Source of the DNA: Akkermansiaceae bacterium
GTDB lineage: Bacteria; Verrucomicrobiota; Verrucomicrobiia; Verrucomicrobiales; Akkermansiaceae
DNA: 40,518 nucleotides
Direction: 5' to 3'
Assembly (NCBI GenBank): GCA_023253625.1
Contig: JALRFY010000237.1
Span: 1 to 40,518 of the forward strand
Shown: in pieces, positions 36,814 to 38,760 of the stretch
Layout: the number at the start of each line of letters is the position of its first letter
How positions within the stretch are numbered: the stretch's first letter is position 1
Notes under the pieces: model-generated
The model's database searches: none
What the model saw: only the letters and a program-made list of their open reading frames with translations
What the model was told of the DNA's origin: nothing
Position numbers and translations under genes: made by a program

Positions 36814-36842
36814 TTGACACCCCAGGATCGTCCCCCTAGCTT
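36814..36842 (+). promoter_or_regulatory. Sigma70-type promoter of rplM-rpsI
   Basis: TTGACA (36814-36819) is a perfect -35, followed after exactly 17 bp by TAGCTT (36837-36842) as the -10. Transcription should start near 36849, giving a leader of about 50 nt before the rplM ATG. Spacing and position fit a strong housekeeping promoter. Confidence 0.75.
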
Positions 36843-36897
36843 GCGTGCCCCTTCGCGCGCACGGTCGGTGCCGAAGGTATTTTTCCCAACCAATCGA

Positions 36898-37329
36898 ATG
36901 AAGACGTTTTCCGCCAAGCCCCACGAAGTCGAACGCAAGTGGTATGTGATCGACGCCAAGGACAAGATCCTCGGTCAAGTGGCCGTTGAAGCCGCGCGCC
37001 TGCTCCGCGGCAAGCACAAGCCGATATTCACCTCGCACATCGACACCGGCGATTTCGTGGTCGTGATCAATGCCGACAAGGTGGTGCTGAGCGGTGCCAA
37101 GGAACACCAGAAGATCTACACCCGTTTCTCCGGCTACGTCGGCGGGCAGAAATCCGAAACCCCGCGCATGGTCCGCGAGCGTCGGCCCGTCCTGCTCGTT
37201 GAGCGCGCGGTTTACGGCATGCTGCCCAAAACCCGCCTCGGCAAGGCGCAATACACCAAGCTCAAGGTTTACGCCGGTGCCGGGCACCCGCATGAAGCGC
37301 AACAGCCCGCCGAGCACGCCGTCCGCTGA
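36898..37329 (+). CDS. rplM: 50S ribosomal protein L13
   Basis: A 143-residue ribosomal protein that binds 23S rRNA early in large-subunit assembly. [41 protein letters not shown], the [14 protein letters not shown] block and [23 protein letters not shown] in pieces are textbook. The frame is open 28 codons upstream, past the promoter; ATG 36898 is the real start, without any Shine-Dalgarno. It is followed by rpsI after 29 bp, the usual L13-S9 order. Confidence 0.97.
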
Positions 37330-37358
37330 TTTCATCACCCCATCACTTTTCCCATCCC

Positions 37359-37754
37359 ATGACTGCCACTCCCACCCAAAGCGCCACCGGCCGCCGCAAA
37401 ACCGCCGTGGCCCACGTCTGGCTCACCGAAGGCACCGGCCAGATCACCATCAACCACCGCTCCTTCGAGGATTACCTGCCAAGCTTGGAACTGCAAAACA
37501 GCGTTCTCGCCCCATTCCATGCAGCCAACCTCTCTAACAAATACGACGTCAAGGTCTCCGTCAAGGGAGGCGGTCCCGTCGCCCAGGCCGTGGCCATCCG
37601 CCATGCCATCTCACGCAGCCTCACCCAGCTTGACGCCGAGACCCGCAAGATCATCAAGCCACTCGGCTTCCTGACCCGAGATCCGCGCATGAAGGAGCGC
37701 AAGAAGTCCGGCCAACCCGGTGCCCGCAAGCGCTTCCAGTTCTCCAAGCGCTGA
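37359..37754 (+). CDS. rpsI: 30S ribosomal protein S9
   Basis: A 131-residue ribosomal protein. SATGRRKTAVAHVWLTEGTG opens it, KGGGPVAQAVAIRHAISRSL lies in the middle, and the C-terminal KKSGQPGARKRFQFSKR ends in the Lys-Arg tail that reaches the ribosomal P site. It is co-transcribed with rplM and followed by a terminator. The 28 bases before its ATG contain no G at all and no Shine-Dalgarno. Confidence 0.97.
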   Translation: MTATPTQSATGRRKTAVAHVWLTEGTGQITINHRSFEDYLPSLELQNSVLAPFHAANLSNKYDVKVSVKGGGPVAQAVAIRHAISRSLTQLDAETRKIIKPLGFLTRDPRMKERKKSGQPGARKRFQFSKR

Positions 37755-38081: not shown

Positions 38082-38672
38082 ATGGACGAAGTTGCAGATA
38101 CCATGCCCGACAAGCTCGCCGCTTGTGCCTTTGCGCTTTTTTCACAGCGCGGCATCGAACGCGTCCGGATGGACGACATCGCTCGTAGCGCCGGCGTGAC
38201 CAAGGGCAGCCTCTATTGGCATTACAGCTCGAAGGACGAAGTGATCCATGCCGCTTGCCGGCATTACTACCTCAGCTGGACCAAGCAGATGGAATGCGAA
38301 ACCGCGAAGGCAGCCACGCCTGCCGGAAAACTGAGACACGCCATCCGCTCGTCGGTTCATACCTGCCTGATTGATGAAAACAACCGCACCTTCACCTTGG
38401 AGCTGTTCACCCTGTCCATTCACGACAAAGAGGTGCGCGACGGCTGGCGCATCTTCTTCGACGGAGTGAAGGCATTCTACACAACCCTGCTCCAGAATGC
38501 CATGGCCTGTGGCGAGGTGCCAGAGGGCGATCCGGCGGCCGCTGTCGATCTGATGCTCGCGGCCATGGAGGGCTACAAACTCCGCGCTTTGTTCGAGCCC
38601 GGTCTTTGCGCCCGCAATGCGGAACGGCGGATCACCTCGCTGCTGCTGGAAATCATCGGGGTCCAAGCGTGA
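38082..38672 (+). CDS. TetR/AcrR-family transcriptional regulator
   Basis: A 196-residue DNA-binding repressor. The N-terminal helix-turn-helix is plain: AFALFSQRGIERVR then MDDIARSAGVTKGSLYWHY (about residues 28-48), followed by the KDEVIHAACRHY linker helix. The C-terminal ligand domain is all-helical without known motif. An alternative start is ATG 38103; at ATG 38082 GGAG directly abuts the start codon. It lies 88 bp upstream of the exported oxidoreductase, whose promoter carries a TetR-like dyad, so it may control that gene and the following one. Ligand unknown. Confidence 0.93.
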   Translation: MDEVADTMPDKLAACAFALFSQRGIERVRMDDIARSAGVTKGSLYWHYSSKDEVIHAACRHYYLSWTKQMECETAKAATPAGKLRHAIRSSVHTCLIDENNRTFTLELFTLSIHDKEVRDGWRIFFDGVKAFYTTLLQNAMACGEVPEGDPAAAVDLMLAAMEGYKLRALFEPGLCARNAERRITSLLLEIIGVQA

Positions 38673-38714: not shown

Positions 38715-38744
38715 TTGACTGTTAGCCATACCAGTGGGTATGGA
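38715..38744 (+). promoter_or_regulatory. Putative promoter of the exported oxidoreductase
   Basis: TTGACT (38715-38720) fits the -35 consensus at five of six positions; after 18 bp comes TATGGA (38739-38744) as a weaker -10. The leader would be only about 10 nt before ATG 38761, which would suit the lack of a ribosome site. An 18-bp dyad overlaps the spacer and the -10. Confidence 0.5.
38726..38743. promoter_or_regulatory. 18-bp dyad, candidate TetR operator
   Basis: CCATACC (38726-38732) and GGTATGG (38737-38743) are perfect inverted copies around AGTG. The ATACC/GGTAT core and length are common for TetR-family operators, and it covers the promoter spacer and -10, so binding would block RNA polymerase. 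The regulator gene lies directly upstream. Binding itself is inference. Confidence 0.55.
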
Positions 38745-38760
38745 GACATGACTGACGATC

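Follow-up and report, generated by a model that had tools for sequence, protein, structure and literature searches.

The perfect 18-bp dyad that lies between the genes for a TetR-family regulator and a Gfo/Idh/MocA oxidoreductase is very probably the operator of the adjacent regulator, which would cover the promoter and hold the operon off until a small molecule releases it. The link of regulator, operator and target is well supported by comparison of sequences. The putative operator accompanies the TetR gene, adjoins it and is often found 5' of the same kind of gene, and its conservation beside the regulator is judged to be far beyond chance. Where the gene pair is kept, the dyad is conserved after the TetR gene not only within the genus but also in a second family of the order and in further families of the class. 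This is the outcome of the footprinting check proposed in the first-pass annotation, whose interpretation of the dyad as a TetR operator is supported.

The dyad and its neighbours in the window

The window, the whole stretch of DNA that was analysed, is one entire contig of 40518 bases from a 3.44 Mb draft genome (G000). At its right end the order is TetR gene, an 88-bp gap, the Gfo/Idh/MocA oxidoreductase gene and the start of a HEAT/ThuA-type gene (Table 1). The dyad had been described as a perfect 7+4+7 palindrome placed 3' of the first of these genes and 5' of the second. Both statements are borne out by the coordinates, with zero mismatches in the 7-bp arms and a position between the TetR stop and the ATG of the oxidoreductase gene.

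Table 1. Positions of the regulator, the operon genes and the putative operator elements; coordinates are those of the window unless a locus (L) is named.
Feature	Position	Strand	Basis or remark
TetR-family regulator	38082..38672	+	196 aa as listed; Pfam, fold, alignments
Putative -35 TTGACT	38715..38720	+	Sequence
Operator dyad (predicted) CCATACC-AGTG-GGTATGG (CCATACCAGTGGGTATGG)	38726..38743	.	Sequence; conservation at TetR loci across the class
Conserved core CATAC-N6-GTATG	38727-38742	.	Within the operator dyad
Putative -10 TATGGA	38739..38744	+	In the right dyad arm and just beyond
Gfo/Idh/MocA oxidoreductase, 435 aa	38761..40068	+	Pfam GFO_IDH_MocA (PF01408) 89.4 bits, C2 (PF19051) 128.7 bits
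HEAT-repeat/ThuA-type protein, 5' part, truncated by contig end	40077..40518	+	Reading frame
TIM-barrel isomerase-like gene	L055:1273-2139 (G000 contig C227)	minus	In-frame TGA at codon 31
Dyad before oxidoreductase, G028	L008:1323-1340		
Dyad before oxidoreductase, G017	L023:10384-10401		

The regulator carries a TetR-type helix-turn-helix domain (Pfam TetR_N, PF00440, 59 bits against a cut-off of 24) followed by a BetI-type C-terminal domain (Pfam TetR_C_6, 29.3 bits, cut-off 27). A start at 38103, giving 189 aa, agrees better with the orthologues than the listed start. AlphaFold2, run from a two-sequence alignment, produced five models with pLDDT values of 86.5, 86.1, 61.3, 49.4 and 43.5, and the best of these is an all-helical TetR-like fold with a C-terminal regulatory domain. 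Foldseek matches of the predicted structure in the PDB are TetR regulators, with TM scores up to 0.83.

The oxidoreductase shows the two-domain build of the Gfo/Idh/MocA family, an NAD-binding Rossmann domain and a C-terminal alpha/beta domain. Its N-terminus holds a twin-arginine sequence, NRRGFLRG, read by eye; the Pfam TAT_signal model gave no match on this protein. Judged from that sequence, the enzyme would work in the periplasm. The next gene runs off the contig, and the final residues of its product in the window overlap the beginning of L055:2151-4223, which lies on contig C227 of G000. A full-length relative (L028:10189-12612) has HEAT_2 and ThuA domains. On C227 the HEAT/ThuA gene is found beside a TIM-barrel isomerase-like gene that is 87% identical to the copy in the G028 operon; given its in-frame TGA, this gene is either broken or misread in the draft assembly.

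Beyond the TIM-barrel gene, an ORF at L055:1-897 resembles, by eye, a tyrosine-recombinase-type integrase. The integrase-like ORF, together with a regulator present in only three of the 73 genus genomes, suggests a horizontally acquired island. No tRNA genes were found in the window, L055 or L028. On the other side, the TetR gene is preceded by apparent genes for the ribosomal proteins L13 and S9 (window 36814-37754, by eye).

Taken by itself, the dyad is only suggestive, since the shuffling odds are modest, and single-sequence significance is not relied on here. Dinucleotide shuffling of the 88-bp gap gave a 7+4+7 dyad in 12 of 5000 cases and any 7+(0-10)+7 dyad in 146 of 5000. Perfect 7+4+7 dyads number three in the window, and perfect dyads with 7-bp arms number 65 if spacers of 0-10 bp are allowed. 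The dyad is the sole exact match in its own genome. At up to two mismatches it occurs in seven places against ten for the backwards-read control, which means no enrichment across that genome.

Putative operators that accompany the regulator

Thresholds for the comparison of 73 genomes of the genus, the window genome among them, were E<=1e-15 for a TetR orthologue and E<=1e-110 for an oxidoreductase match. A TetR orthologue was detected in three genomes (the window, G028 at 71% identity and G017 at 61%) and an oxidoreductase match in seven. In all three TetR-bearing genomes the dyad, with at most one mismatch in its 14 specified bases, stands 17-28 nt 5' of the oxidoreductase ATG. No copy with up to three mismatches was found in the loci, 4.2-4.3 kb long, of the four oxidoreductase matches whose genomes lack the TetR gene (G057 and G105, both 73% identical to the window protein, G016, 65%, and G052, which at 46% may not be an orthologue). 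The exact form CCATAC-N6-GTATGG is found nowhere in these four genomes; there are six such sites in the three TetR genomes and four in the other 70, and the reversed control gives two in all 73. Two of the three exact sites in G028 lie inside ORFs and are probably there by chance. A scan of genome contigs found one locus, which is the same contig as G028.

Between the window and G028 the operators are identical at 16 of 18 positions, and the remaining intergenic region aligns badly. The base A right after the dyad is kept at all five genus sites. The seventh base pair of the arms is broken in G028, in G017 and at several sites of the class, and 7+4+7 was dropped as the conserved form. What had been annotated thus holds as a conserved dyad, and the conserved operator has the form CCATAC-N6-GTATGG, with the core CATAC-N6-GTATG.

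In two of the genomes without TetR or dyad, G057 and G105 (L025 and L026), the oxidoreductase match is followed by a HEAT/ThuA-like gene, recognised by eye, in a different neighbourhood. The enzyme pair therefore exists under other control as well.

G017 differs in arrangement. Its TetR gene stands away from the operon, adjoining what we take to be an AraC-type gene and dxs, and no operator occurs within 200 bp of it. Three operators are found within about 25 kb of the TetR gene on one contig, each 5' of a gene in the same direction: the oxidoreductase gene, a Golvesin_C/PEP-CTERM gene and an ORF of about 1450 aa. These sites stay near the regulator even with the gene pair separated, which argues for a regulon. 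Two of the G017 operators (L023:17526-17543 and L024:15305-15322) also have in common a stretch, TGACATGGACGG, that begins about 26-27 bp upstream of the operator and is perhaps a second site or part of a promoter.

In a sample of 386 genomes of the order, a profile of the three TetR proteins detected one more orthologue, from another family (G137). Read in the TetR direction, this locus has GCATACTGATAAGTATGC just 5' of the TetR gene and GCATACTGATCAGTATGC just 3' of it, one of the two being a perfect palindrome over 26 bp. The loose motif, at up to two mismatches, is found in 94 places of the G137 genome against 116 for the control; it is not enriched, so position is what matters.

For the class, 384 sampled genomes yielded 13 further TetR orthologues from seven genera and five families. 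The core CATAC-N6-GTATG was set before this test, and the loci that had defined the motif (window, G028, G017, G137) were left out. Within 200 bp and at no more than one mismatch, the core was found upstream of the TetR gene at 11 of 13 loci and downstream at 10 of 13; the shuffle mean was 0.03 on each side and the reversed pattern gave 0 and 0. Of the 13 loci, eight have an upstream site with zero mismatches and none a downstream one, so the downstream sites are imperfect; with two mismatches the counts rise to 12 of 13 on each side (shuffle means 0.56 and 0.43). Several of the loci come from the same genus, so the 13 are not independent and the effective number is smaller.

At 12 of the 13 class loci a site with no more than one mismatch lies on one or both sides of the TetR gene. 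The remaining locus, G418, which was retained in the test, has no such site on either side; it is cut by the contig end, the contig starting 44 bp before the TetR gene. A downstream site was not found at three loci (G443, G418 and G406), and in G442 and G413 it overlaps the 3' end of the TetR reading frame. The conserved CATAC-N6-GTATG would thus represent a palindromic operator at the regulator gene. The recognition helix varies little: the stretch VTKGSLY is present in four aligned orthologues and VTKG-[SC]-[LVF]-YW in all 13 class orthologues, a near-invariance in keeping with a near-constant operator.

Promoters, putative targets and the proposed mode of control

In the proposed mechanism, a TetR dimer would dock on CATAC-N6-GTATG and cover the oxidoreductase promoter at its spacer and -10. 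The genes kept off would be those for the oxidoreductase, the HEAT/ThuA protein and the TIM-barrel isomerase-like protein. Release would come from a small molecule connected with the pathway, most probably a derivative of a sugar.

The dyad had been placed over a TTGACT/TATGGA promoter, and that layout is present in the window, with a spacer of 18 bp and a TATGGA that agrees with the -10 consensus at three of six positions. As a general feature of targets it did not hold up. The target sites number 16, from 13 loci with a site within 200 bp downstream of the TetR gene plus the three G017 sites, and TTGAC is found at one of them, the window, so the promoter claim does not describe a conserved target feature. 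A more general -35 element was also tried at the target sites and rejected: the best -35 scores at the first seven sites add up to 23, where shuffles average 19.0 and 1279 of 20000 of them reach 23.

Operators that precede the TetR gene present another picture. At all 12 of these (11 class loci and G137) the arrangement TTGAC-N16-18-TATNNN is found, with the TATNNN at the right arm, which is the layout annotated for the window; when the 20 bases upstream are shuffled the TTGAC count averages 0.05 of 12, with a largest value of three. The TAT belongs to the operator itself, which leaves the -35 as the informative element. No operator was found before the TetR gene in the window, G028 or G017, the best site having five mismatches of 12, and self-regulation through this motif thus seems to be absent in the genus.

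Another way for the regulator to repress its target from the dyad is to act as a road-block or by operator looping, with the TTGACT of the window a local addition. This is rather unlikely, though several observations favour it. TTGAC is absent at 15 of the 16 target operators, and operators flank the TetR gene on both sides at nine of the 13 class loci and in G137. In G397, G437, G413, G421, G405 and G644 a distance of 6-7 nt separates the end of the 16-bp core from the ATG; there the operator may instead impede elongation, form a loop with the operator upstream or mark the start of an almost leaderless transcript. Set against this, the window site has its own -35 at an allowed spacing, and the window, G028 and G017, with the poor best site noted above, show no looping partner. 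At five of the loci with the short distance (L075-L079, from G397, G437, G413, G421 and G405) GGAG occurs in the downstream operator's spacer, 12-13 nt 5' of the ATG, and a ribosome-binding site may thus overlap with the operator.

That the TetR protein activates the operon from the dyad is improbable. Some members of the family do activate, AtrA being an example (PMC3511530), but here the dyad covers the -10, and before the TetR gene in relatives it sits between TTGAC and the -10, which is a repressor layout. It is most improbable that the dyad is an RNA hairpin or the site of another regulator with the TetR gene nearby by coincidence: short dyads are common in the window, but this one goes with the TetR gene in several families, on one side of it or the other, and the loci of oxidoreductase matches that lack TetR yielded no copy at up to three mismatches; it also has no T run after it and varies in its six spacer bases from site to site.

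With the dyad read as the operator of a TetR repressor, the putative targets form a recurring set. The first gene after the target operator is a match to the window oxidoreductase (BLAST E<=1e-5) at 10 of the 16 sites, the window's own among them. Identities to the window protein are 79% in G028, 69% in G017 and 54% in G442, and 20-28% in G429, G397, G437, G413, G421 and G405. Pfam, applied to five of these ten oxidoreductase-like targets (window, G429, G437, G413 and G405), detected GFO_IDH_MocA in every one; the frame in G421 ends after 183 aa. At the six other sites the first gene encodes a ThuA protein in G644 and a DUF7133/HEAT/cytochrome c protein in G137; in G431 (by Pfam) and G656 (by eye) its product has a pilin-type N-terminus, and the last two sites belong to the two further genes of G017. 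Among ten proteins chosen as TetR neighbours, GFO_IDH_MocA is found in eight, and TIM-barrel isomerase-like genes recur across these loci. A set of oxidoreductase, ThuA and isomerase-like genes fits a module for the oxidation of sugars or glycosides. The top NCBIfam match of the oxidoreductase is the BT_2158 glycoside 3-dehydrogenase (116.5 bits, E 1.1e-33), well short of the family cut-off of 750 bits (NF058561), so it is not assigned to that family.

Relation to known regulators and what the regulon would mean

Local repressors of the TetR/tetA type share with this system the TetR helix-turn-helix and fold and a palindromic operator over a promoter beside the regulator gene. A survey of divergent TetR pairs (PMC3511530) found regulation at distances within 200 bp; the distance from TetR to target in the window is also within 200 bp. 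Unlike the TetR/tetA type, regulator and target in the window run in the same direction, and an oxidoreductase of the sugar type takes the place of the efflux pump as target.

The butyrolactone receptors ArpA, CprB and ScbR are another point of comparison, ScbR being the best NCBIfam match of the regulator. Membership in the ScbR/ArpA group was rejected at 58.2 bits against a cut-off of 150 (NF041196). CprB, as described in PMC4150764, binds a 22-bp semi-palindrome that starts ACATAC as a dimer of dimers; the conserved core at sites of the window type, in contrast, is 16-18 bp. BetI shares the type of C-terminal domain found in the regulator. The choline repressor model itself was rejected (49.8 bits, TIGR03384 cut-off 201.3), and the genes found in the window operon are not choline genes.

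No description of the regulon was found among the literature matches listed. What is added is a regulator-operator-target set across a class; its kind, a local TetR regulon, is already known, and it is not a new type of system. A wider proposal can be put forward tentatively, with somewhat less than even confidence: a class-wide, undescribed regulon of the Verrucomicrobiae, in which one TetR lineage with the operator CATAC-N6-GTATG would sense an oxidised sugar or glycoside and switch modules of a twin-arginine Gfo/Idh/MocA protein, a ThuA-domain protein and a TIM-barrel isomerase.

The searches made in this analysis gave no assignment of substrates to the gene sets of Gfo/Idh/MocA, ThuA and isomerase-like proteins. 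A direct handle on them is a regulator whose operator is defined and whose target recurs, as the compound that releases it is likely to be a substrate or product of the pathway. The operator motif can also lead to additional regulon members, as in G017. If the class-wide regulon is real, identifying its inducer would reveal the substrate of the Gfo/Idh/MocA-ThuA-isomerase modules.
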